From the IMG/VR virus record IMGVR_UViG_3300025413_000094, positions 1-29,490 of that record: DNA of 29,490 bases, one strand, 5' to 3'. Shown in pieces: positions 5,044 through 29,490 of the stretch (positions are counted from its first letter, which is position 1; every line of letters starts with the position of its first letter). Source of the DNA: a virus. The notes below the pieces were generated by a model that worked only from the letters and a program-made list of their open reading frames with translations, was not told where the DNA came from and did not search any database. The position numbers and the translations under genes are program-made.

Positions 5044-6228
5044 TTAGAGATGTTTCTTTAGACCTGCAGCTGAGGCGTGGATCTCTTTCTGCATTTCTTC
5101 CTTACCTGCAGGCTTTAGACCTTGGTACTTGGCAAGAAGAGTTGATGCATGAGCACCTGTTAGCTTTGTGACTTCACCATTCTTGTGCTTGAATTCATTA
5201 GCACCACGCATGTCGTGCTTGATTCGTTCTAGCTGCTGAATTGGATGTTGACGAGGCTCGTCTTGTTCTGCTGCACCCATTTCCTGTTTGCGCTTCCAAG
5301 CTTCTGAACCTTCCTTTGGAGGACGACCACGGCCTTCTTCAAGATCAGCCATTAGAGCTTCAATGCGGTCAAGTTCTTCCTGAGTAAGTTCTACTGATTC
5401 ATCAAGATGTTTACGGATACTGTCAGCATGCTTATTAGCATCACCACGACCTGTACCAATAGCATCAATTAGATTACCAATGTGTGCATGAACTGGGTGT
5501 GTTTTATCTGGGAACTTTTTACGAGCTTTATCAATAAGTTTACCTGCTTCATCTCCGAAGATTTCATCTAATTCTACTTCTTCCTTGGTGAGCTTATCAG
5601 TAGCTTTGCCAATACCAGTATAACGCTTTACTACATTTTTAAAGTGTGTCTTTTCACGCTTTGATGCATCATTATTAATGATATCTTTTACCTTTTGGCG
5701 AACATCAGCAGGAGTACCTGTAGTTGCATGATCAATAGCATGAGCAGCGTTACGATCCGCACGAGCCTTTTCAACTTCAGCGTGGCTCTGAGCCATTGAA
5801 TTAGATGCTTTCTTGATGTATGAACCTAGTGTCTTCTTTGATAGTTCATCAAGCTGTTCGAACTCTTCTGGAAGTTCCTTGAACTGACCCTTCTTAAGAG
5901 TGTACTTCATATTTTCGAATACAATATGAATATCACCGTTACGACGGTCACGATGTGTGACTTCAGCTAGACCACCATGAATGTCTGGTGTGTGTGGTGA
6001 ATGAATCACAACACGATCGATACCTTCAGCACGAAGACGACGGAAGTCATCTGAATCAAGCTTACCGTTATGATTCTTGTCGATCTTCTTCTGCTTTGCA
6101 GTTAAAGTCTTAGCTGCTTCACCCAAATCTTCGAGTGGAGTACCAACCGATGAATTACCAGCCATAAGCTGTTGAACATCTCTGATCAAGTTTTTGCTTA
6201 GGCTAGTTAAAAAGCTATTATTCTTCAT
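5044..6228 (-). CDS. EF-hand-containing internal/structural protein, unknown function
   Basis: 394 residues, strongly charged and helical. Residues 50-61 form a complete EF-hand calcium loop (DKNHNGKLDSDD, with D50, N52, N54, K56 and the final D61). Later it has KEEVELDEIFGD, a linker of the same type seen in the large protein at 6719-9307, and a Lys/Arg/Glu-rich C-terminus with GRGRPPKEGS. I read it as a head-associated or packaged protein that may be processed at L-x-E sites by the prohead protease. The function is unknown. The upstream gap has an AATAAATA box and AGGAG. Confidence 0.65.
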   Translation of the reverse strand: MKNNSFLTSLSKNLIRDVQQLMAGNSSVGTPLEDLGEAAKTLTAKQKKIDKNHNGKLDSDDFRRLRAEGIDRVVIHSPHTPDIHGGLAEVTHRDRRNGDIHIVFENMKYTLKKGQFKELPEEFEQLDELSKKTLGSYIKKASNSMAQSHAEVEKARADRNAAHAIDHATTGTPADVRQKVKDIINNDASKREKTHFKNVVKRYTGIGKATDKLTKEEVELDEIFGDEAGKLIDKARKKFPDKTHPVHAHIGNLIDAIGTGRGDANKHADSIRKHLDESVELTQEELDRIEALMADLEEGRGRPPKEGSEAWKRKQEMGAAEQDEPRQHPIQQLERIKHDMRGANEFKHKNGEVTKLTGAHASTLLAKYQGLKPAGKEEMQKEIHASAAGLKKHL

Positions 6229-6269
6229 TATTTCTTCTCCTAGAAATTCTATATGATATTTATTAAAAC

Positions 6270-6707
6270 TTATCTCTTTAATGTAGCCTTAAGCTTCCAT
6301 TGATCCTTTTCATTTGCTTCAAGCAAATCTTCAATAAACTTAACTGCTCCACGTTGGTTTTGTTCTTCTGCTAATGCATGACAAGACATAAGTCTTGAGT
6401 GTAACTTCTGATTATCTTGAGCAATACGGTTAATCATTTCCCAAGCATCAGGTACAGTTAGTTCATCTTCAATACTAGTAAGTTCCTTAAATCTTCTTAG
6501 TGAACCTGGAGCATAAGCACCAAGAGCACGGATATGTTCGGCAATATCATCGACATTTTCATCAGCAGATGTATAAAGATCTTGAAAGAGAGCATGATAT
6601 TGTGGGAAGTTGGGACCTTCCACATTCCAATGATAATACTGTGCTTTAATTCTAAATGCTGAAACATCAGCAAGTAACATTTTCATCGCTTCAATTAGTT
6701 TATCCAT
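6270..6707 (-). CDS. dps: Dps/ferritin-like protein
   Basis: Start set at the ATG at 6705-6707, with GAGGA upstream. The longer frame needs a TTG. The 145-residue product matches the Dps family: YYHWNVEGPNFPQYHALFQ and then a D/E helix (DENVDDIAEHIRALG). The ferroxidase residues H26, H38, D53 and E57 keep the exact spacing of Escherichia coli Dps (H51, H63, D78, E82). Dps dodecamers oxidise and store iron with peroxide and protect DNA. Here it sits between head-associated genes, so it may protect phage or host DNA from oxidative damage or accompany the virion. The N-terminal tail is short, so DNA binding is less certain. Confidence 0.92.
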   Translation of the reverse strand: MDKLIEAMKMLLADVSAFRIKAQYYHWNVEGPNFPQYHALFQDLYTSADENVDDIAEHIRALGAYAPGSLRRFKELTSIEDELTVPDAWEMINRIAQDNQKLHSRLMSCHALAEEQNQRGAVKFIEDLLEANEKDQWKLKATLKR

Positions 6708-6718
6708 ACTTAAAATCC

Positions 6719-9307
6719 TCAATAACTGTCTGTGTTGCCAAGAGTTTGATCGGTGTCACCATTATGGACATTACCACTCTTGATGATTTTACGGTTTAAC
6801 TTACGAAGAACTGATTTGGCAGGAATGACATTGCCATAAGCATCAAGATGTGCTGGAACAATGACTGGTGCTTTTTCTGCTGAAGTCACATCTTCTTCGA
6901 TTTCATCTAGTACTGATGGATGATGTGCAAAACCACCTTGCATCTTGATTCCAAGATCTGCTGCTGTAAATGTCTGACCAATACCAGCAGCATAAGCAAT
7001 GTTGAATGCTTCGTCAAGATTCTGACCTGGTGTAGCTTTCTTTAGAATTTTGACCAACGAATCTGTACCGATTAGACGATTCTCTGGCTTGTTTGGATCT
7101 ACACCATCTGATGCTTCAAGAACATTCTTTGAGATTTCTTGTTCTCTGTTAGCAGCCGAAGCAGGATCAGTAGGCTTTTTAGTACGTTCAACATTCTGAA
7201 TCTTGTTACGGGCAGTCTGACCGCGAGCAACACCCTGAACTTTAACACGTGAATCAGTATCTTCCTTCAGACCTTTCTTATGCATTACTACATATCGTTC
7301 ATCGTTTGAAAGCATATCCTTGAGTTCTTTGTTGTATTTACCTTGATCTCGCTTTGGGCTTTTTTCTTTATCTGCCTCAACTGAATTATAATCTTTATCT
7401 GAACTGTAATGTTCATCTTCAGTTGGCTTCATATGAAAAGCTTGTTTAGTCTTAGGATCGTATCCATGCACATGAATTCGTGGGTGTTTGGCTGCTTTAT
7501 CCCAAACTCTTCTAGCACCAGCTGACTGATTCTTTGATGAAAGAATCTTATCATGCTTTAGAACTAGATGTTGGTAAAGATGATGTGCACCAGGTGAATG
7601 TTCATTACCCACTAGTGTATCAACTTCTTCAGCATTATTTTTCTTAGGCCAAGTTGTTAAAACTGTATTCACTTCTTTTGTTTCTGGGTGAGTAACTCTA
7701 TAGATATGCTTATCGGCTTGTACTTTGAAATGAACTTCATGTCCGCCCGGTAGAGTACCGATCATCTTATGACCAGATCCTAGTTTTTTACCTAGAGTTC
7801 TACTCTTGAGTTTATCTGATTTAACAATATCGTTCTGAAAAACTTCATCTAGTTCTGTTTCTTCGTTCTGATGCTTGAAGTACTGAACTTGCTTTTCACG
7901 TTTTTCAGCACCTTCTCTGGTAGGATAAGTACCGAGATTCTTACCAGTTGACTTTGAAACTAGACGATAACCGCCCTTTACTTTAACAATGTGTTCATCT
8001 AGCTCAGTTTCTTCATTTACATAAGTTTCGTTGTTGTGATAGAAACTAGCACGGCTGCGCTTATTTTGACCCTTTCGAGTCCAACCCATTCTACTAAAGC
8101 CATTCTCATGCTTATATTTTCTATCTAGATGGTCTTCAAGATCTTTCTTTGAAATGTTATGATTTGACCAATCTTTAATATGCTGATGAATATCACCAAG
8201 TAAAGCACCCTTTACTTCTTTACCAGCAGATGTTTCATATCTGCCGACCATTGCATTTTTAATGTGATGATCTAGTGAATGATTAGCTTCCTTTGATTTT
8301 TTCTGAGCCTGGCGCATTGTATCAACTCTTGCACCAATATCATTACCAGGAAAATATGATTCATTTGTTACACCGAATGCATGTTTTTCAGCTGCCTTCT
8401 TGAATGGTAGACCGAAGTACTTAACTCGACCATGCTTGTTAGAAGCTTTCCATGCGGTTTGTTTAGTTTGACCTTTTTCAATTTGTGGCTTTACATAAGG
8501 TGTATTCTTTGATTCATCAACTGATTCTTGAGCCGCTTTTAGTGCTGCATCAGTTGGGGCGCCTTTTGACCCCGGTTTGCGCATGTGTTCACCTGAACCC
8601 GCTTTAATTCTTTCTTGCTTAGCGTGAATGTTATCCCACAGACCACGCTTTTCGTGCAAATCTGCATCTTCATTAAAATAAGTCTTACCTTGATTGATGT
8701 ATGAGTTTACACGAGCAAATGCATACTGTGTAGAAGATACATTAAGATCTTCGGTCCAGGCATCAAGACCACGATTATAGACTTCACCTAGGATTTCTAG
8801 ATCGATATCTGACTTATCTGCTTTCTTAACAAGACCTCTAAACTCTGAGCTATTGACATCAAGATCTTCACCGAACTTGCCATACTGAATAATAGGTGAA
8901 CCTTTAATATTAGTACCGCCTTTTGCATTACCTGCTGCTTCACCTTTAGAATTCTTAGTTGGTACTTTCTTACCACTTGAAACAATAGGATTATCTGAAC
9001 GTTCACCAGTTGACCCACTATTGCCAGGTGCTGAATCACCAAAATATTCAACGAACATAGAGTTTACAGAATTAGATTCAGTGACAAGTGTTTTACTGAT
9101 TCTATTCTTGTTGATAATTCTTTGAGCTACTTCGTTAATTAGATCTTCTTTCCTAAGTATAACTTTATCTACATCAACACTTTCATCTAGTTGTTCCTGA
9201 AGCTTTGAACGAACAATTTGTCTTGCTTGTGCATAAGCCGCATTCTTTAGGCGCTGTTGTTCATCTAATTTGTGTCTGTAGTTTTCAATAATTGTTCTTG
9301 TGCTCAT
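6719..9307 (-). CDS. Large modular head-associated protein, possible processed polyprotein
   Basis: I start at the ATG at 9305-9307 (MSTRTIIENYRHKL), which has AGAGGA upstream. The frame stays open to 9403 but without a good ribosome site. The 862-residue product is a string of modules: a helical N-terminus, a G/S/N-rich linker, a GLWDNIHAKQERIKAG...RKPGSKGAPT module common in T4-like phage proteins, and a short GGYRLVSKSTGKNLGTYP module. A domain near 7440-7860 bears QSAGARRVWDKAAKHPRIHVHGY, weakly like GNAT-type phage proteins. Modules are separated by EETELDE linkers. L-x-E is the T4 gp21 prohead-protease consensus, so cleavage into pieces is plausible. Function unknown. Confidence 0.7.
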   Translation of the reverse strand: MSTRTIIENYRHKLDEQQRLKNAAYAQARQIVRSKLQEQLDESVDVDKVILRKEDLINEVAQRIINKNRISKTLVTESNSVNSMFVEYFGDSAPGNSGSTGERSDNPIVSSGKKVPTKNSKGEAAGNAKGGTNIKGSPIIQYGKFGEDLDVNSSEFRGLVKKADKSDIDLEILGEVYNRGLDAWTEDLNVSSTQYAFARVNSYINQGKTYFNEDADLHEKRGLWDNIHAKQERIKAGSGEHMRKPGSKGAPTDAALKAAQESVDESKNTPYVKPQIEKGQTKQTAWKASNKHGRVKYFGLPFKKAAEKHAFGVTNESYFPGNDIGARVDTMRQAQKKSKEANHSLDHHIKNAMVGRYETSAGKEVKGALLGDIHQHIKDWSNHNISKKDLEDHLDRKYKHENGFSRMGWTRKGQNKRSRASFYHNNETYVNEETELDEHIVKVKGGYRLVSKSTGKNLGTYPTREGAEKREKQVQYFKHQNEETELDEVFQNDIVKSDKLKSRTLGKKLGSGHKMIGTLPGGHEVHFKVQADKHIYRVTHPETKEVNTVLTTWPKKNNAEEVDTLVGNEHSPGAHHLYQHLVLKHDKILSSKNQSAGARRVWDKAAKHPRIHVHGYDPKTKQAFHMKPTEDEHYSSDKDYNSVEADKEKSPKRDQGKYNKELKDMLSNDERYVVMHKKGLKEDTDSRVKVQGVARGQTARNKIQNVERTKKPTDPASAANREQEISKNVLEASDGVDPNKPENRLIGTDSLVKILKKATPGQNLDEAFNIAYAAGIGQTFTAADLGIKMQGGFAHHPSVLDEIEEDVTSAEKAPVIVPAHLDAYGNVIPAKSVLRKLNRKIIKSGNVHNGDTDQTLGNTDSY

Positions 9308-14631: not shown

Positions 14632-15705
14632 TCATTTTTGCAATTTAAATTTTATGTCGTTAGGATATTCACGTCCGACTGAATTTCTTATTTCAATTTT
14701 ATATTGTTTTTCTCTATTTGAGCATTTAATAGTAATCTGTTTTGTTGACTTTGATGGATATTCAATACTATCAATTTTAATGTTGTTAGTTAAGTCAGAT
14801 AGTTTTTTTCGGTCAATCCAAAATACTTCCCAAGTATTACCTACTTTTTTTCTAACATAGAAATAATTCATTCCCCATGCTCGTTCAAAAATTGATTTAA
14901 TCTTTGTGAGGTTTGGTTTACTAACAGGAAGTTTTGATCTTATTTTTTTAACATTATTTCTAAGATCAAATCCTGATTGCACAAGATTTAAATCTACACC
15001 AAAAGATCTTAAGAAATCAGCACCTTCTGAATTTGCTTGAAGGTCTCCAGTTGAATTGAATAATGAACCAGCACCTGGATATGCACTAAAAGTCAAGCCA
15101 TTAACATCTTTAAGTGATATGTACCAAGGTTTATTTGAAGCATCAGTAAGAACAATGTCACCGATAACTTCTCCTAGTTTCTCGATTGGAATACCAGTTT
15201 TTCTTGTTGAACCTTTTCTTTGTTTTACGTCTTTAATTTCAACTGAAGCAAAATCTTTATTTGCTTTATTCATTTGATTGATAAGATCAACATAAGTATC
15301 GCTTCTTTTATTTATTTTAAAAAATGAAGCTAAATTACTTACAGTATTGGTCTCAAAATTCTCACCTTTATTCGCACCTCTAGCAATAACCAAATCGTAT
15401 TTTTGATTATCGAATATAAATGAGTAACTTGGGAATTTAGAACTATTTACTGATATTTCATTATATTTGATATTAGAAGCATTCTCAATATTAACTTTGA
15501 TAATCTTATCCATATCTCGAATGAGTTTATCGGAAGTATCATCATTTTTATTGATAAGTTGCAATCTAAATTCACGCATACTTTTATCAGTTTTGCCAAC
15601 TTTACCGCCTGGAAAAATTGGAGCAACTTGGTAGTTGTAAGGTTTTAATAGAACGTTTAATTTACTTCCAAATTCTTTAAAGAATGCAATACTATTATTA
15701 GCCAC
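14632..15705 (-). CDS. Unrecognised protein, possible PD-(D/E)XK-like nuclease
   Basis: 357 residues from a GTG start (15703-15705). No family is recognised. Residues 107-118 (IARGANKGENFE) and 182-199 (GDIVLTDASNKPWYISLK) resemble the E ... D ... xK pattern of the PD-(D/E)XK nuclease fold, with D183 and K199 and with Ser in place of the usual Glu before Lys. The sequence is Lys/Asn-rich, like the two homing endonucleases here and unlike its direct neighbours. Its start carries the same late-promoter plus hairpin module as those endonucleases (15711-15733). I infer a mobile-type or defence-related nuclease, with low certainty. Confidence 0.6.
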   Translation of the reverse strand: MANNSIAFFKEFGSKLNVLLKPYNYQVAPIFPGGKVGKTDKSMREFRLQLINKNDDTSDKLIRDMDKIIKVNIENASNIKYNEISVNSSKFPSYSFIFDNQKYDLVIARGANKGENFETNTVSNLASFFKINKRSDTYVDLINQMNKANKDFASVEIKDVKQRKGSTRKTGIPIEKLGEVIGDIVLTDASNKPWYISLKDVNGLTFSAYPGAGSLFNSTGDLQANSEGADFLRSFGVDLNLVQSGFDLRNNVKKIRSKLPVSKPNLTKIKSIFERAWGMNYFYVRKKVGNTWEVFWIDRKKLSDLTNNIKIDSIEYPSKSTKQITIKCSNREKQYKIEIRNSVGREYPNDIKFKLQK

Positions 15706-15710
15706 AATTC

Positions 15711-15728
15711 ATACCTCTTTTGAGGTAT
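15711..15728 (-). promoter_or_regulatory. RBS-sequestering hairpin at the start of the 14632-15705 gene
   Basis: The minus-strand RNA would form AUACCUC-AAAA-GAGGUAU, a 7-bp stem with the Shine-Dalgarno GAGG in the 3' arm. The last three bases of the TATAAATA box are the first three bases of the 5' arm, so late transcripts should start inside the hairpin and leave the ribosome site free. Confidence 0.7.
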
Positions 15729-15733
15729 TTATA
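15726..15733 (-). promoter_or_regulatory. T4-type late promoter TATAAATA overlapping a hairpin
   Basis: Perfect late box immediately before the 14632-15705 gene, overlapping the 5' arm of its leader hairpin. Confidence 0.75.
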
Positions 15734-21275: not shown

Positions 21276-21286
21276 TTTTATCTCCT
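21273..21286 (-). promoter_or_regulatory. AGGAGA ribosome site paired with an ATT start
   Basis: Minus strand AGGAGA (21281-21286), spacer TAAAA, then ATT (21273-21275). The spacing is ideal for ATT and far too long (over 50 bases) for the downstream ATG at 21227. The AGGAGA begins inside the endonuclease stop codon. Confidence 0.6.
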
Positions 21287-22181
21287 ATAAATTATCAAAA
21301 AATTTATCTAAATTACTTAGTTCTTCTTCTGTTATTAATGAAAATGCATAGTCCAAACTATTTAATTTTTCAATTACAATTTCATTAATCATAGATACAG
21401 GTTTTATTTCTATAATTGTATCATAATCTGAAAGATAAAAATCTGGATAATAAAAGCAATATTTGTTTTTATCTTGATTAAAATATTTTACTCGAAATTC
21501 TTTTGTTGAAGCTGACTCACATCTTATATTATGTTTATCACAATATTGTAAAAATGTCAATTCATAACTAGATCTATAAGCTATATCATTAAATCTTCCC
21601 GTTTTATATCCCTTTGGCGAACCAGAAGAAATAGTAATAGGAGGATTATCACTTTGATATAATATATTAATTGTATGTCTTATTTTATCTTTAGTTTCTT
21701 GAGTATGATTTAAAGTTTTATTTTTTCTTTTTGATTCTATAACATTTTGATGATGTAATTTAGTATGTTTTTTACCAATATGACTAGTTGATATTTTTTT
21801 ATTTCTTAATTCTGGGTCAGAAAAATGTGAAAGACTACCATATCTATCAACCATAGTGGTTGTTCTTGTTTTTTCTTTTTTAAGTTGATTTGTGTTTTTA
21901 ATTCTTTTCTCAATAGTTTCTTGGGATTGAATTTTACCAGTGGCTTTTTCACTCAATAATATTCTAGTTTTAGGATCATTAGTATGACATTTTTTACTAC
22001 AATATTTTAGATATTTGTTTCCACGAAAAGTCGTTTTGTTACCACAAATACAAAATCCTTCATTTTCTTTTCTTACAAATTTATCATAATATAATTTTTT
22101 AGTAAAATTATGGGTAGATATGTGTCTGCTAAGTGAACTACTATTTTTAAATTCTTGTGAACAAATTAAACATACATTCAT
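21285..22181 (-). CDS. Free-standing homing endonuclease (zinc fingers + PD-(D/E)XK nuclease)
   Basis: 298 residues. There is an N-terminal C2H2 finger (C4, C7, H20, H24) and a second zinc knuckle (C44, C46, C61, C65). The basic middle contains NUMOD3-like DNA-binding repeats (TGKIQSQETIEKR, GKKHTKLHHQNVIES, NHTQETKDKIR). A C-terminal nuclease domain has E207 (YRSSYELTF), D247 (YYPDFYL) and E258-x-K260 (IIEIK), the PD-(D/E)XK signature. It is very Lys/Asn-rich and AT-rich compared with its neighbours, a sign of transfer. The gene sits between the deaminase and the ATT-start gene, without splitting either. It has the late-promoter plus hairpin module. Confidence 0.85.
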   Translation of the reverse strand: MNVCLICSQEFKNSSSLSRHISTHNFTKKLYYDKFVRKENEGFCICGNKTTFRGNKYLKYCSKKCHTNDPKTRILLSEKATGKIQSQETIEKRIKNTNQLKKEKTRTTTMVDRYGSLSHFSDPELRNKKISTSHIGKKHTKLHHQNVIESKRKNKTLNHTQETKDKIRHTINILYQSDNPPITISSGSPKGYKTGRFNDIAYRSSYELTFLQYCDKHNIRCESASTKEFRVKYFNQDKNKYCFYYPDFYLSDYDTIIEIKPVSMINEIVIEKLNSLDYAFSLITEEELSNLDKFFDNL

Positions 22182-22207
22182 AAATATCTCCTATTTTAGA
22201 TATTTAT
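22180..22207 (-). promoter_or_regulatory. RBS-sequestering hairpin at the start of the homing endonuclease
   Basis: Minus-strand RNA arms AUAAAUAUCU (22198-22207) and AGAUAUUUAU (22180-22189) pair over 10 bp around the loop AAAAUAGG. The Shine-Dalgarno UAGGAGA and the first two bases of the AUG fall in the loop and 3' arm. The 5' arm overlaps the TATAAATA box, so late RNA would lack it. Confidence 0.75.
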
Positions 22208-22208
22208 A
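22201..22208 (-). promoter_or_regulatory. T4-type late promoter TATAAATA overlapping a hairpin
   Basis: Perfect late box 20 bases before the ATG of the homing endonuclease, overlapping the 5' arm of its leader hairpin. Confidence 0.75.
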
Positions 22209-24085: not shown

Positions 24086-24274
24086 TTATGAGTAAGTTTC
24101 AATATTTGTAAGAAAAAAGCTAGGTGTCCAGCCGTCGAAGCCGCTTCCAAAATTTAGCTTCCGACAAAGTTCTTTAGCTTCACTTGTGATAAGACTCATT
24201 GCAACATACTGCTCGGTCTTTGTTTCGAAGATTGAGGAGACGATATCGTTCTGTGGAATGATCTTGTAGTTCAT
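24086..24274 (-). CDS. Small conserved phage protein (GFDGWTPSFF), 62 aa
   Basis: 62 residues with LNFGSGFDGWTPSFFL near the C-terminus, a motif I associate with small conserved proteins of cyanophage-type T4 relatives. ATG overlaps the gp41 helicase stop (TAATG), so it is translated with the helicase. No known function. Confidence 0.7.
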   Translation of the reverse strand: MNYKIIPQNDIVSSIFETKTEQYVAMSLITSEAKELCRKLNFGSGFDGWTPSFFLTNIETYS

Positions 24275-25659
24275 TACTTAAAGTCCTTGAATTTGTTACG
24301 GTCAAACTTGGAAGAAGGCTTATCACCAGATGGAGTCTTGTCCATTACTGGACCATCATCCATTAGATCTTGGGCAGATTTTTCTACATCGTACAGTTTC
24401 ATCCTTGCTCTATCAACACCAACAACAAATCGTTTAAAGTAACTTGGATCATTGTATCGGTTTTTCAACTGTTTGATCATGATCTGACCTAGTTGATCAA
24501 GTTCTTCCGAAACAATCAATGCAGCCATAAAGTCGCAAGTAGCAGGTAGACCGAATGATTCCGATGTGTCAGTAATTTCAACATCAGAATTTCCATAACC
24601 AGATCTTGTAGTCTGAGTAGCACTAATAAGCGGAATGTTAAACTCAACTGCAAGACCTCTTAGTTCTTCAGCGATTGATTTAATCATTGTGTATGAATTG
24701 ACATTCGCGCCACCACGAATTCGACTTGAAGTACAAAGATTTAGATAGTCAACATAGACAACATCAGGGACAAAATTCTTCTTGAGCTTTAATTCATTTA
24801 GAAGATGTCTGAAGTTTGCTGCACCAGCTGAAGCAGTAGGATATTCTTTGACAATGAACTTACCTTGAGTTTTACCTCTAAGACGATCCATCATCTTGAC
24901 ATAGGATTCCTTAGGTAGTTCTTCAAGTTCTGCCATAGTGACATTGAGCAGATTTGCATCGACACGCTTGGCAATTTCCTGTTCTGCCATTTCCAAGGTG
25001 ATGTAAAGGACATTCAGTCCACTCATAAGATTGTTTGCAGCACAGTGACACATGAAGAGTGACTTGCCAACACCAGTACCAGCGAGGAATACGTTGAGTG
25101 TCTTACGAGGTAAGCCGCCCTTTGTGATCTTGTTCATGTATTCAAGATCAAATGGGATCTTATGTTGTTTTGTGTGATAGTAGTCATATCGTGCATCAAC
25201 ATTCTCGAGGAAGTCATGTCCGATATTGGTATCAAATGATACTGACAGTGCATCTGTCAATAGCCCAGGGATACTACCCTTGGATAGATTTGAATTGTCA
25301 CCATCCAGGATTTTAATTGAGTTCACAATTGCATTGTAGATTGCTTTATCTTGACAAAACTTTTCCGTTTGGTCAACAAGCCAATCAAGATTTTCTTTTT
25401 CAGGTTCCTTGATATTTTCTACATAAGTTCTTGCTTTAGCAAATTGGTCATCATTTAAACTTTTTGAATTGGATAATTCAATGATGATTGCTTCTCTGGA
25501 GGGAATCTTATTGTAATCATTGACATATGTCTCAATAGTAGAATAAATCTTATTCTCTAGATAATCTGAGAAGTATTCAGTCCTGAGATGAGGTAGTGCT
25601 TTCCGAGCAAAATCTTCATTGTACAATAAATTATTGAAAATTACTTCTTCTATCTTCAT
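24274..25659 (-). CDS. 41: Replicative DNA helicase (T4 gp41, DnaB family)
   Basis: 461 residues, close to T4 gp41. The N-terminal helical domain is followed by a RecA-type core with Walker A FLAGTGVGKSLF (GTGVGKS 194-200), Walker B PDVVYVDYLNLC (298-309) and the DnaB-type LISATQTTR sensor. Six subunits encircle the lagging-strand template and unwind DNA at the fork with the gp61 primase. It has a consensus-like promoter (25690-25718) within an 18-bp inverted repeat and a strong AGGAGG ribosome site. No intein is present, although gp41 genes of some phages carry split inteins. Confidence 0.95.
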   Translation of the reverse strand: MKIEEVIFNNLLYNEDFARKALPHLRTEYFSDYLENKIYSTIETYVNDYNKIPSREAIIIELSNSKSLNDDQFAKARTYVENIKEPEKENLDWLVDQTEKFCQDKAIYNAIVNSIKILDGDNSNLSKGSIPGLLTDALSVSFDTNIGHDFLENVDARYDYYHTKQHKIPFDLEYMNKITKGGLPRKTLNVFLAGTGVGKSLFMCHCAANNLMSGLNVLYITLEMAEQEIAKRVDANLLNVTMAELEELPKESYVKMMDRLRGKTQGKFIVKEYPTASAGAANFRHLLNELKLKKNFVPDVVYVDYLNLCTSSRIRGGANVNSYTMIKSIAEELRGLAVEFNIPLISATQTTRSGYGNSDVEITDTSESFGLPATCDFMAALIVSEELDQLGQIMIKQLKNRYNDPSYFKRFVVGVDRARMKLYDVEKSAQDLMDDGPVMDKTPSGDKPSSKFDRNKFKDFK

Positions 25660-25727: not shown

Positions 25728-26288
25728 TCAATCTTCGTCGAGTTCTTCGTAAATTGATTCTGAATCATCTTCATCTGAAACCAAAGTACTATTACTTACT
25801 AGGAACTTGTTTTCAACAAATCGATTGAATGAAGGGGATTCTAGTATTGGATTCCAAAACTCAGATGTATTAGTATCTTTTTCACGGAAGCTCTTGTCAG
25901 AAATCTCACCTGTTTCCATATCAACTTTCTGATACCAACCATTCTTAGGCTTGATTACGTGACCAGATTCAAGAGCTAGATCAAGTAGACCTGACCACTT
26001 GTTAATACCACCTGCGAACTTAACAACAAATGGGAACTTAGACTTTTCCTTCACGAAACGAGACTTCTCGATGTTAATTGTAAAGTTATAACCAGCAAGT
26101 TGATCCTTACCGTCAATCTTTTCCTTTTCCTGAGCCTTACCGATAATGAAGACCTGCATAGCAGAATACATACCACCAGTATTGTGAGTTACTACTCCAT
26201 TTTCTAAGATATAATGCTCAGCTTCCATTACCGAAATATCATATACAGGTCTTTTACCTACATGTGTAATACTTTTAACAGTTTTCAT
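25728..26288 (-). CDS. uvsX: UvsX C-terminal cistron: C-intein fused to the C-extein
   Basis: 186 residues. The first 36 are a C-intein (MKTVKSITHVGKRPVYDISV ... VVTHN), with the terminal His-Asn of intein block G. The C-extein starts with T37 (TGGMYSAMQVFIIGK) and continues through UvsX sequence (NFTINIEKSRFVKEKSKFP, GLLDLALESGHVIKPKNGWY) to an acidic tail. It joins residue 210 of the N-terminal cistron to restore a GG-TGG-MYSA segment, equivalent to the T4 UvsX region GGGTGVMYSA. AAAGGA within the end of the endonuclease gene serves as ribosome site, and the ATG overlaps that gene by 14 bases. Confidence 0.92.
   Translation of the reverse strand: MKTVKSITHVGKRPVYDISVMEAEHYILENGVVTHNTGGMYSAMQVFIIGKAQEKEKIDGKDQLAGYNFTINIEKSRFVKEKSKFPFVVKFAGGINKWSGLLDLALESGHVIKPKNGWYQKVDMETGEISDKSFREKDTNTSEFWNPILESPSFNRFVENKFLVSNSTLVSDEDDSESIYEELDED
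26181..26288 (-). other. Split intein, C-terminal fragment (36 aa)
   Basis: Intein blocks F (VYDISVMEAEHYILENG) and G (VVTHN, followed by T as +1 nucleophile). Together with the N-fragment (27331-27612) this makes a 130-residue endonuclease-free intein. Confidence 0.9.
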
Positions 26289-27294
26289 TTTTAATTTCCT
26301 TTACTAAATTAGTGATAGTGTCTATTTTATTCTTATTGTATTCAGATTCCCAGATAACAAAATATCTGAATCCTAATGATTCAATGAAATTTTTCTTTAT
26401 CTTATCATTTTCATTATTTTCGGTGTGCCAATAGTTGCCATGAAATTCAACACAAATCATATATGTTAAATCAATATAATCATATTTTCTATATCCAACA
26501 GCTGGGATATACTTTCCAAATTCAGAAGACCCAAGATATAGTTTCGATTCTGGAAAGAATAAAGATAAAGAATGGCAAAATTCATCCGCAATCTTCGATC
26601 TGAAAATAGTATTTGAATATCTATTTGATAGATATTCTTCAAATAATTCAACATAGTTTTGATCTTCGTAATTTTTAGACCAATATTCAATATTTAAAGG
26701 ATTGAACGTCTTGAGTTCATCTTTCGTGTATTTTAATGTAGATTTTCTACTATTTGATTTCTGTTTTTCACTGACCAATTCAACTGCTTCATTTAAAGTA
26801 AATCCTTTATTAATCCAAAAATTTACATTCCAACAAGAAACAGTACCATTACCAAGTTTTAACTTTCTATGGAATTCTTTACCACTTTCGGATTGAAATT
26901 TTGAAACTTTTTTAATAGCTTCTTCTTTACTCAATCCTCTAGATTCCCAATATAGATTAGATCTTGGTGAATTTGTTTTTTGGATTTCAGATACTTTATT
27001 ATTGGCGTATTCTTCCGACCACCCTCTAGAAATCCAATATTTAGTAGTTCGTATTGATCCACCTGGTTTATTATCTGGATTTAGAAGTAATGCCATTTGC
27101 TCTTTGTACTTAATTGAAGCTTTTATTTCTGAACCTAAAGATTCAATCATCGTTATTATCTTAGGGTTATCATAGTTAATATCTTTTAAATAATAAGAAA
27201 TTATTAAAATCTTATCTTCAAAGCTAAGATAACCCTTTGATAAATCAATATTAGGAAAAAGCTTATTGTAATTTTTTATTAGCAGTTTATTCAT
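26275..27294 (-). CDS. Vsr-like homing endonuclease inserted inside the split intein
   Basis: 339 residues from the ATG at 27292-27294. A start 18 bases upstream would put the Shine-Dalgarno inside the gene. Residues 86-178 hold three repeats of the pattern YW-x-S-RG-x-S-x-E-x-A-x-x-x-VS (KYWISRGWSEEYA, LYWESRGLSKEEA, NFWINKGFTLNEA), which look like DNA-recognition modules. The C-terminus is Vsr-like: KYDYIDL, VEFHGNYWH (282-290) and FVIWESEYN (312-320). Vsr-like homing endonucleases are known from fractured phage genes. It presumably cuts intein-free uvsX alleles to spread the element. It has the late-promoter plus hairpin module. Confidence 0.88.
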   Translation of the reverse strand: MNKLLIKNYNKLFPNIDLSKGYLSFEDKILIISYYLKDINYDNPKIITMIESLGSEIKASIKYKEQMALLLNPDNKPGGSIRTTKYWISRGWSEEYANNKVSEIQKTNSPRSNLYWESRGLSKEEAIKKVSKFQSESGKEFHRKLKLGNGTVSCWNVNFWINKGFTLNEAVELVSEKQKSNSRKSTLKYTKDELKTFNPLNIEYWSKNYEDQNYVELFEEYLSNRYSNTIFRSKIADEFCHSLSLFFPESKLYLGSSEFGKYIPAVGYRKYDYIDLTYMICVEFHGNYWHTENNENDKIKKNFIESLGFRYFVIWESEYNKNKIDTITNLVKEIKNENC

Positions 27295-27318
27295 AGTTAT
27301 GCCTCCTGACATAACTAT
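27293..27318 (-). promoter_or_regulatory. RBS-sequestering hairpin at the start of the intein endonuclease
   Basis: Minus-strand RNA AUAGUUAUG / CAUAACUAU (9 bp; arms 27310-27318 and 27293-27301) has the loop UCAGGAGG, which is the Shine-Dalgarno. The start codon begins in the 3' arm. The first three bases of the 5' arm are the end of the TATAAATA box. Confidence 0.78.
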
Positions 27319-27323
27319 TTATA
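27316..27323 (-). promoter_or_regulatory. T4-type late promoter TATAAATA overlapping a hairpin
   Basis: Perfect late box between the stop of the UvsX N-terminal cistron and the endonuclease gene. The predicted late transcript would begin near 27309, inside the hairpin. It would give late RNA encoding the endonuclease and the UvsX C-half. Confidence 0.78.
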
Positions 27324-27327
27324 TGGA

Positions 27328-28242
27328 TTATGAATTTGAAATCAATTTAGTTTCGGGTAGAAGATCTTTCGCTTCAATCCAATTCATATCTTCTGATAGA
27401 AATCTGTGTTTATCAGAACACACTACTTTATAACCATCATCAAACTCTATTTCATAACATTCTGGTTCACCAATTTCAAGTGTTTCAGGGTCCCATGTCG
27501 CAGATACAGATTTGTTACCTAGTAGCGTTTTTACAGAATCACCATCAAGAATATCTTCAATTGATTTTACAGTACCGTCTGACATTTGAATCATTGTTCC
27601 TGCTTCAAGACAACCGCCAGACATGATTGCCTTACTGAACATTTCCATAGTCTGGTAAGTGTGGTTGACTGCGATGCAAGGAATATCCTTGGTAGTCAAG
27701 TGAGGAGTGACGATACGCCAGAGTGACTTCATCACCTTAGCACGAGTCATATCTGCTGCGGCATTACCATTTAGAGCGTCCTCAGCTTCTTTCTTGGAAG
27801 CCAAATTACCGACAGAGTCGATAAAGAAGATCACCTTATCACCACGCTTAATTTCGTCTAGGCGCTTAGCGATGTCAAACTTAAGATGTTCTAGATGTTC
27901 GATTGGTACGTGAACAATACGACTTGGGTCAAGACCATTTGACTTGATGTAGTCGGGAGTAATACCAAACTCTGAATCGTAGAAGATGCAGATTGAATCT
28001 TTGTACTTCTTCATGTAAGCCTTGACCAAAACAAGACCCAGAAGTGATTTAAAGTGTTTGGAAGGACCAGCAAGGAATGTGAGTCCTGAAATAAGACCGC
28101 TTTTTAGCTTACCACCCAAAGCAAGATTGATAATAGGAATCTCTGTTGGGGATTGGTCTTTGTCATTAAAGAGTGCTGATTCATCAAGAGTTACTGACTT
28201 GATTGAACCTGCTTTAAGCATACGTTGTAATAGATCACTCAT
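27328..28242 (-). CDS. uvsX: UvsX N-terminal cistron: N-extein fused to the N-intein
   Basis: 304 residues. 1-210 are UvsX recombinase: Walker A FLAGPSKHFKS (57-66), the Walker B strand VIFFIDS and PCIAVNHTYQTMEMFSKAIMSGG. At residue 211 an N-intein starts (CLEAGTMIQMSDGTVKSIED), with block B VVCSDKHRFLS, and the frame stops at ISNS. UvsX is the T4 RecA-like strand-exchange protein needed for recombination-dependent replication. Because this cistron stops before loop 2 and the C-domain, active UvsX needs trans-splicing with the 25728-26288 product. Its leader holds AAAGGA and a hairpin (28268-28288). Confidence 0.93.
   Translation of the reverse strand: MSDLLQRMLKAGSIKSVTLDESALFNDKDQSPTEIPIINLALGGKLKSGLISGLTFLAGPSKHFKSLLGLVLVKAYMKKYKDSICIFYDSEFGITPDYIKSNGLDPSRIVHVPIEHLEHLKFDIAKRLDEIKRGDKVIFFIDSVGNLASKKEAEDALNGNAAADMTRAKVMKSLWRIVTPHLTTKDIPCIAVNHTYQTMEMFSKAIMSGGCLEAGTMIQMSDGTVKSIEDILDGDSVKTLLGNKSVSATWDPETLEIGEPECYEIEFDDGYKVVCSDKHRFLSEDMNWIEAKDLLPETKLISNS
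27331..27612 (-). other. Split intein, N-terminal fragment (94 aa)
   Basis: Starts with Cys (block A CLEAGTMIQMSDG) directly after UvsX SGG and contains block B (CSDKHRF, like the ICSEEH of the gp41-1 intein). It ends at the stop after ETKLISNS. There is no endonuclease domain inside the intein itself. Confidence 0.9.
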
Positions 28243-28267
28243 ATTTTATCCTTTGTTGATTGGTTTA

Positions 28268-28288
28268 TAGAGGGTAACTACCCCTCTA
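28268..28288 (-). promoter_or_regulatory. Hairpin in the uvsX leader
   Basis: Minus strand TAGAGGGGTA-GT-TACCCTCTA (one bulged G) lies between the stop of the small 28292-28510 gene and the uvsX ribosome site. No T-run follows, so it is more likely an RNA-stability, processing or control hairpin than a terminator. It does not cover the ribosome site. Confidence 0.45.
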
Positions 28289-28291
28289 CCA

Positions 28292-28510
28292 TTATTTATC
28301 CAGCAAATCTTTCAATTGCGAAAGAAATTGCTCAAGTTTTTCTTTACGGTTTGGCCAACGAATAATGTCCTTATCCGAATCTCTAAGAAGATTACTAATA
28401 AGAGGTTCGATCATACCATACATTTTATAGAGTCGCTCTCTATAATCACTTTCATTTACTAGATCATATTTGTCTACTGCCGTAAATCCAAAATCATCAT
28501 CAAAATTCAT
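28292..28510 (-). CDS. Small conserved phage protein (NFDDDFGFTAVD), 72 aa
   Basis: Start at the ATG at 28508-28510, with AAGGA upstream. The frame is open further upstream over the end of the polymerase gene. The product begins MNFDDDFGFTAVDKYDLVN, a motif shared by a small protein next to DNA polymerase in cyanophage-type T4 relatives, as I remember. It continues as a charged helical protein (RLYKMYGMIEPLISNLL) and ends LLDK. Its role is unknown; the position between gp43 and uvsX suggests replication timing. Confidence 0.75.
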   Translation of the reverse strand: MNFDDDFGFTAVDKYDLVNESDYRERLYKMYGMIEPLISNLLRDSDKDIIRWPNRKEKLEQFLSQLKDLLDK

Positions 28511-28520
28511 AAAGTATTCC

Positions 28521-29490
28521 TTAGTCAAAGAAGCTATCAAGTGTGGATTTCTTTTCAGCACTCCACCCAATTGAGTTTAGAACAATTGATAGTGGATCAA
28601 GATATGCCTTTTCAAATTGTAGATCATAGTCGATATAGTTATTCAGACCAAATTCAGTAGGAAGTTCAGCAGGACTTGAGATCACATTTGTTCCGTATGG
28701 ATTCGGACTCTTTAGATAACAGAATTTAATCTTGTCACCATTTGCAATAGTATCAACTTGATTTCCCAATTTCAGATCGGATACAAGCTTATTATAAAGA
28801 ATACTACCTTTGACATGAATTGGTGTGCCCTTGATATACATTTCAGCACCACGACTGACATATTGAGTCAAATTGGAAACACCACGAGGTGAAGCAATAT
28901 CCTGAAATGGAAGTGACTTGAACTTTTCACGGAATTGAGCTACATAGTTCTGAAGATCCGTTTCGGTTTTATTCATGATAAGCCCAAACACACTCTTCAG
29001 TGCATCACGACAAGCCTGAGGAGTTGATGATTTCACGGCTTCGATGCCAGTCATCTTCAGTTTGGCTGTTTCATACGCAACGCCTTCCTGATTCCACACA
29101 TTTAGGATATAGCGCTTTTTGGCAGTCCAAATTGCCTTGTCAGCGATACATTCACGCTTCATGTGCATTTTCTGGTCAAAAGCACCTACACGGTCAGCCA
29201 GATCCTTATAGCACTTATCAATGAAAGGTTCGAACTTTTCTTTACATGCTTTGTCGAGCCATGCAACAATCTTTTTAGTGTCAGATTGATCCTGGAAGAC
29301 CATATCAACCAGATTGGAAACTGTTACATAAATCGAGTCGGTATCTGAAGCAACGATATAATCAAAGCCTTCGGTCTTGCAAAGCTTATTGAGATATTCA
29401 TTCATACGGTCGGCGATCCAACGAATGGACAACTGACCTGACATGGTAATTGCCTCAGCATGGTTGATGTCGAACCAACGGAAGTACTTA
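28521..29490 (-). CDS. 43: DNA polymerase, family B (T4 gp43), C-terminal part
   Basis: The frame continues through the right edge, so the ATG at 29442-29444 is internal and residues before it (KYFRWFDINHAEAIT) match polymerase sequence. Visible motifs are AITMSGQLSIRWIADRMNEYLN, motif C ASDTDSIYV (catalytic Asp pair) and the thumb-region AKKRYILNV and KMTGIEAVKSSTP. The C-terminus LDSFFD resembles the sliding-clamp-binding tail of T4 gp43. The exonuclease domain and the N-terminus lie outside. It acts at the fork with the gp41/gp61 primosome. No intein lies in the visible part. Confidence 0.95.
   Translation of the reverse strand, partial: KYFRWFDINHAEAITMSGQLSIRWIADRMNEYLNKLCKTEGFDYIVASDTDSIYVTVSNLVDMVFQDQSDTKKIVAWLDKACKEKFEPFIDKCYKDLADRVGAFDQKMHMKRECIADKAIWTAKKRYILNVWNQEGVAYETAKLKMTGIEAVKSSTPQACRDALKSVFGLIMNKTETDLQNYVAQFREKFKSLPFQDIASPRGVSNLTQYVSRGAEMYIKGTPIHVKGSILYNKLVSDLKLGNQVDTIANGDKIKFCYLKSPNPYGTNVISSPAELPTEFGLNNYIDYDLQFEKAYLDPLSIVLNSIGWSAEKKSTLDSFFD

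Follow-up and report, generated by a model that had tools for sequence, protein, structure and literature searches.

The window analysed here is the whole of a 29,490-nucleotide (nt) stretch of viral DNA, record IMGVR_UViG_3300025413_000094 of IMG/VR, from a T4-like phage, and the subject is its recombinase gene uvsX, which lies on the minus strand and is broken at codon 210/211 into three open reading frames (ORFs; Table 1). An earlier sequence-only reading had described a fractured uvsX at this position, and the observation was confirmed. UvsX residues 1-210 run into an N-intein with Cys as its first residue and a TAA stop codon (27328-27330) behind its last, a free-standing endonuclease gene with its own start codon and ribosome site follows, and a second cistron encodes a C-intein ending in His-Asn directly before the remainder of UvsX (VVTHN/TGGMYSA). 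The last 14 nt of the endonuclease gene are also the first 14 nt of the C-intein cistron. Both extein parts are complete, as had been claimed; joined at the GG/TGG-MYSA loop, the 210 and 150 amino acids (aa) give 360 aa, exactly as in alleles lacking the element, and across the junction they read ...SGG/TGGMYSA..., as those empty alleles do without interruption. The exteins matched phrog_97 and PF21134 (T4_UVSX_C), the N-extein being 57-99 % identical to other UvsX proteins, and the gene has both a RecA core and the C-terminal domain of T4 UvsX. It stands beside gp41 and gp43, with the DNA polymerase gene (28521-29489) and the gp41 helicase gene (24274-25659) as neighbours. The arrangement is not due to chance, because it was found again at the identical codon in complete genomes of cultured phages and in many IMG/VR contigs.

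Table 1 Features of the fractured uvsX locus, in window coordinates
Feature	Position	Strand	Basis
UvsX-N and 94-aa N-intein cistron	27328-28242	(-)	ORF list, family matches
UvsX N-extein, residues 1-210, end IMSGG	27613..28242	(-)	phrog_97 and PF00154 matches
N-intein, 94 aa, Cys1, block B S-D-K-H, then TAA	27328..27612	(-)	PF14890, TIGR01445
T4-late-promoter-like box TATAAATA	27316..27323	(-)	sequence; enrichment of the exact box among endonuclease genes
11-bp RNA hairpin over endonuclease Shine-Dalgarno (27302-27307) and start codon	27293..27318	(-)	fold -13 kcal/mol, z -2.9
Likely Vsr-like (EDxHD-type) homing endonuclease, free-standing, 339 aa	26275..27294	(-)	weak PF18741/PF04480 matches, 3r3p, relative in L153
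Shine-Dalgarno AAAGGA of the C-cistron, within the end of the endonuclease gene	26297..26302	(-)	sequence
C-intein and UvsX-C cistron	25728-26288	(-)	ORF list, family matches
C-intein, 36 aa, MKTVKSITHVGKRPVYDISV...ENGVVTHN	26181..26288	(-)	TIGR01443 2.4e-6, PF14890
UvsX C-extein, 150 aa from Thr+1 (TGGMYSA), with stop	25728..26180	(-)	PF21134 6.7e-20, phrog_97
Entire mobile element, 1,432 nt	26181..27612	(-)	missing from the empty allele (L008, L009)
Co-conversion-like tract, element excluded	25809..28367	(-)	88/90 differences from the near-isogenic empty allele L008

The two fragments had been taken for a split intein, and comparison with family collections bears this out. Splicing regions were matched in both halves by PF14890 and by TIGR01445 and TIGR01443 (Pfam, NCBIfam), with TIGR01443 scoring above its cutoff and TIGR01445 and PF14890 just below theirs, and the fragments also matched PHROG 8337 and 18112. 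The splicing residues are intact (Cys1, S-D-K-H, THN and Thr+1); an alignment of 14 N-inteins of the same uvsX site shows no variation at Cys1, at the block-B His or in the motifs around them, and the N-intein of the window is 48-64 % identical to the 13 others. The N-intein is acidic (net charge about -13) and the first 16 aa of the C-intein are basic (+3.6), the same pattern that has been tied to the way in which the halves associate in inteins split at the endonuclease site (PMC11923092). The intein fold was recognized in the nearest continuous relative, L088, and not in the window's own halves: the L088 model, made from four sequences (mean predicted local distance difference test, pLDDT, 81), had gp41-1 (PDB 6qaz) as its first match by fold (E 1.8e-8, template modelling score 0.73). 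gp41-1 is likewise split at the canonical endonuclease position; it differs from the uvsX intein in being only about 24 % identical and in its host gene, the gp41 helicase, which is unbroken in the window. From these features we infer that the two halves would splice in trans to give whole UvsX.

It could instead be supposed that the two pieces are never spliced and that UvsX-N and UvsX-C assemble as subunits with the intein halves as relics. Phage enzymes split without an intein do exist (Aeh1 nrdA and the split gene 43; PMC2988022), but this explanation is very unlikely here, as loci that have diverged strongly still share all splicing residues and both halves of the intein, and the cut lies in the GG / TGG-MYSA loop, where the ragged ends would bear 94 and 36 extra residues. 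In addition, the intein has been re-fused in frame in one lineage (described below), which makes sense only if splicing was retained.

The endonuclease encoded in the break consists of tandem helical repeats followed by a C-terminal nuclease domain with VEFHGNYWH ... FIESLGFRYFVIWE. The sequence-only reading began it at the ATG at 27312, as in the ORF list; translation probably starts at the ATG at 27294 (MNKLL...), since the Shine-Dalgarno sequence AGGAGG lies upstream of the latter. The C-terminal domain, examined for a nuclease core of the Vsr/PD-(D/E)XK type, gave weak matches to REase_MTES_1575 (PF18741; 29.3 bits, below the cutoff of 38.2) and DUF559 (PF04480). The best PDB match by sequence was the catalytic domain of I-Bth0305I (3r3p; weak, E 0.14), and the same entry ranked second by fold (probability 0.96, E 0.13) for a low-confidence model built from two sequences only (pLDDT 52), which was taken as a hint. 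As these two weak but independent signals agree, the enzyme is likely to be Vsr-like, in line with the earlier proposal. A relative with 37 % identity lies in the same uvsX break of locus L153, where it too overlaps the C-cistron by 14 nt, and a wider search of viral contigs for close relatives gave L153 only; L240, L241 and phage Lak-B4, mentioned below, turned up through the intein search and not through the endonuclease search.

I-Bth0305I is, according to its PDB entry, a protein of a mobile intron, and group I introns also host Vsr-like endonucleases, so that joining of the two uvsX parts at the RNA level by a self-splicing intron was considered. The Rfam search of the break region gave no match to a group I or group II intron at the gathering score or at E<=1, and on both sides of the break intein motifs are encoded as far as the precise extein junction, which makes RNA splicing unnecessary. 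Unlike the gene of I-Bth0305I, that of the window endonuclease is free-standing inside a split intein. The probability of RNA-level joining is in our judgement close to negligible, and joining at the protein level, as originally suggested, is retained.

The 5' arm of the hairpin at the endonuclease start overlaps both the TATAAATA box and the expected start of a late transcript. In folding calculations, the ribosome site of the endonuclease was unpaired at 28 % in the read-through RNA and at 61-64 % in modelled late RNA, the starts of which were assumed to lie 4-7 nt past the box. The exact box was found upstream of 28 of the 45 intact endonuclease genes at the break, compared with 1.6 % of random segments from the same loci, and the ribosome site was freer in modelled late RNA at 20 of 27 loci, a count that takes in the window with the wrong endonuclease start and several loci that are related to each other. 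By sequence and folding, the window resembles I-TevI, segB and Aeh1 mobE, where a hairpin hides the ribosome site in early RNA and not in late RNA (PMC2988022); the late promoter is placed in the same way, giving the hairpin in early RNA only, and the difference is that the endonuclease gene of the window sits inside a split intein. Only late RNA would thus be expected to free the ribosome site from the hairpin. Mimicry of the uvsX homing site by an operator, as in I-TevI, was also considered and was rejected: 11 of 15 bases match, a value equalled by 91 of 300 shuffles and by 141 of about 300 random window segments.

The sequence-only reading also held that the element spreads among uvsX alleles, and several comparisons agree with this. 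IMG/VR contig L008 is 98.6 % identical to the joined flanks of the window over 6,269 nt and has a precise empty site, as does L009, which carries the same divergent tract. Eighty-eight of the 90 differences between L008 and the window lie at -754 to +372 around the insertion and two in the next 5 kb, and L127 has the haplotype of the window up to the contig end at -150. The simplest reading is that the uvsX region and the element were recently exchanged together, which fits co-conversion during homing; the outgroup distances of the window and L008, a test of the direction of exchange, differ by about 1 % only. The elements of L178 and L180 are 97-98 % identical (N-intein 97.5 %, endonuclease region 98.4 %), and the uvsX alleles hosting them are 78 % and 67 % identical (22-33 % diverged). 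On a uvsX tree of 96 rows, presence and absence of the element are scattered and need at least 8 changes. Cleavage of the element-free allele by the endonuclease would be the initiating step of such transfers.

In the set of loci assembled here, the search with the N-intein gave 148 with this intein, 138 of them joined to uvsX. Among 78 distinct elements with both halves, 5 were continuous, 15 were split by a gap of less than 200 nt, 5 by 200-350 nt and 53 by more. The break contains HNH nucleases (about 20), GIY-YIG nucleases (about 20, including cases that the motif search missed), Vsr-like nucleases (the window, L153 and L240) or a Hef-like nuclease (L241), nuclease remnants, or nothing, so nucleases have been exchanged at the one site. 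Short gaps often code for the tails of nucleases, that of L231 being the tail of a Vsr-like enzyme. In about 19 cultured, plaque-forming T4-like isolates the split gene is the only uvsX detected, and in complete isolate genomes each half was found at one place only; Morganella phage MP1 has an unbroken uvsX. Nine of the isolates with the split gene were read (HY03, Pm5461, TG1, Thanatos-1, PspYZU05, UFV01, SEA1, VmeM-32 and EniLVp02). They share with the window the insertion codon, the split-intein family, with N halves that are 47-64 % identical, and an endonuclease between the halves, whereas their endonucleases are mostly of the GIY-YIG type (decayed in VmeM-32) and none is Vsr-like. Their submitters annotated two genes and a homing endonuclease or hypothetical proteins, a HintC domain being noted in VmeM-32.

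These isolates bear on the possibility that the fracture inactivated uvsX and that the phage depends on the RecA of its host or on some other recombinase. The viability of uvsX mutants of T4 and the fact that the window is a fragment of a genome leave room for such a loss. Against it stand the isolates that form plaques with the split arrangement, the lack of decay in the extein and intein halves, and the nature of the differences between the uvsX alleles of the window and L008, which are almost all synonymous (5, 2 and 71 at the first, second and third codon positions, 71 of 78 being third positions). Inactivation is therefore regarded as highly improbable.

One lineage, L175-L187, contains nuclease-bearing, remnant and re-fused forms with N-inteins 97-100 % identical. 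L187 is split and has a 231-aa HNH nuclease, L177 is continuous, and a clean 726-nt difference separates them (L187:964-1689 versus L177:3441/3442); their identity is 99.9 % in the 963 nt that precede it and 98.2 % in the 2,260 nt that follow. Similarly, L183, split by a 46-nt remnant, and the continuous L176 are 98.4 % identical over 4,506 nt aside from the 46 nt, and L182-L185 as a group hold endonuclease remnants. L177 and L176 both read ...GAATAC/GAGGAAATTATGAAAATT, and the stretch GAGGAAATTATG is present in the re-fused L175-L177. The residual GAGGAAATT in these three corresponds both to the 3' terminus of the nuclease gene and to the C-cistron ribosome site; the ATG after it is the start codon of that cistron, so that the re-fused intein keeps the last bases of the nuclease and the start codon in frame. 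Because the continuous intein has nuclease-derived bases, it is far more likely that a split form lost DNA by deletion than that a continuous one gained an insertion. A single assembly error is unlikely, since the re-fused form occurs in three contigs from three samples and in two uvsX backgrounds (N-exteins 78.5 % identical).

The opposite order, in which the endonuclease was inserted into an ancestral, continuous intein, draws on the existence of continuous inteins without an internal ATG (L216, L237/L239 and L324) and on the weakly supported lower forks of the intein tree. For the re-fused forms it is nevertheless unlikely, in view of the retained nuclease end, ribosome site and start codon, the remnants in L182-L185 and the pair L183/L176; the inteins without an internal ATG suggest that some lineages may never have split. 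We consider it probable that the uvsX split intein passes through a full, reversible cycle in phage populations, with invasion, nuclease exchange, decay and in-frame healing by deletion. If so, a split intein is a reversible state rather than an end point. A word search of open papers, which is weak evidence of absence, found no description of a split intein in uvsX or of one re-fused after loss of its nuclease.

The locus is thus very probably a mobile fractured-gene element in uvsX, trans-spliced and equipped with a late homing endonuclease. Early read-through mRNA would be translated to UvsX-N/N-intein and C-intein/UvsX-C, the halves would associate by way of the acidic N half and the basic start of the C half, and trans-splicing through Cys1, Asn and Thr+1 would yield intact 360-aa UvsX. 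In early mRNA the hairpin would mask the ribosome site of the endonuclease gene and keep the gene silent; at late times RNA would start from the TATAAATA promoter within the 5' arm of the hairpin, leaving the site free. The endonuclease would then cut the element-free uvsX of a co-infecting phage, and repair would copy the intein and endonuclease together with flanking uvsX DNA. Later the endonuclease may decay or yield to another nuclease family, and the split intein may persist alone or re-fuse. Several points weigh against this account. Splicing, the cleavage site and the timing of expression are deduced from sequence, and the assignment of the endonuclease leans on weak scores (PF18741 below cutoff, 3r3p at E 0.14) and on a model with a pLDDT of 52. 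The divergent tract could reflect acquisition or loss of the element by recombination, and the record is a 29,490-nt fragment, so a second uvsX may lie elsewhere in the genome.

The arrangement of the window is of the already known 'fractured gene' kind. Such genes, in which a split intein interrupts a phage DNA enzyme and the break contains a free-standing, often Vsr-like endonuclease gene, were reportedly described by Dassa and colleagues in 2009 (NAR 37:2560; cited in PMC6892783 and PMC7090010) for eight enzyme types. The window shares with them the conserved phage enzyme, the split intein and the free-standing endonuclease in the break; it may differ in its host gene, uvsX, and does differ in that its family shows, at one site, empty alleles, continuous inteins, nuclease remnants and several kinds of nuclease. 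Homing repair in T4-like phages is performed by the recombinase UvsX, so the homing element sits in an enzyme that its spread is expected to need. An endonuclease gene also lies between the halves of a split intein in the replication gene PolB of Pseudomonas phage MIJ3 (PMC6892783), which differs from the window in the gene, in its endonuclease, described as HNH, and in its intein, related to the PolB intein of Salicola phage SCTP-2. For inteins, a homing cycle with endonuclease decay and loss is established (PMC8966425). Studies of split inteins have lacked a series at one site, with empty, continuous, split, split with nuclease, split with remnant and re-fused states, some in near-isogenic pairs; with it, the origin of split inteins and their capacity to re-fuse become directly testable, and this comparative healing series is of more interest than the single example in the window. 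The family is also a source of dozens of naturally split inteins, whose uninterrupted relatives come nearest to gp41-1 in fold, and it puts right the uvsX annotation of many isolates and of two PHROG families.

These two families, PHROG 8337 and 18112, already contain the two halves of the fractured uvsX as separate families, annotated as 'DNA repair protein' and 'recombinase', and in one isolate the C half is labelled as a portal protein; MW883059.1 is an example of the isolates affected by annotation of the split halves. Inteins or related endonucleases were also seen in other phages. In the Prevotella megaphage Lak-B4 (MK250023.1, L155:1957-5091, TAG=Q), a RecA/UvsX-like recombinase is fractured at the corresponding loop and the break has a 463-aa endonuclease with the repeats of the window enzyme; the record is without annotation. 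In Salicola phage SCTP-2 (L324, MF360958.1, gene 204), a UvsX-like protein that lacks an annotation has a continuous intein at this very site, with Ser at +1. In Vibrio phage Va1 (L156:2700-4985, MK387337.2), an ORF annotated as 'putative terminase' has an internal match to the Vsr-like endonuclease of the window and lies near an N-intein-like match, so the terminase possibly carries an intein with a Vsr-like nuclease. Pseudomonas phage PA5oct (L154:2889-4322 and 5590-7425) has a relative of the window endonuclease, annotated as a hypothetical protein, among structural genes and near a Hef-like endonuclease gene.

Elsewhere in the window, a suspected split primase gene (750-2379) was not supported, its upstream ORF being coiled-coil-like and the match due to chance. 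A second endonuclease-like gene (phrog_15137; 21285-22181, minus strand) has TATAAATA at 22201-22208 and a 13-bp hairpin on its ribosome site. The start of the gene at 14632-15705 (minus strand) also has TATAAATA (15726-15733) overlapped by a hairpin, and control by a late box and hairpin is accordingly not limited to endonucleases.

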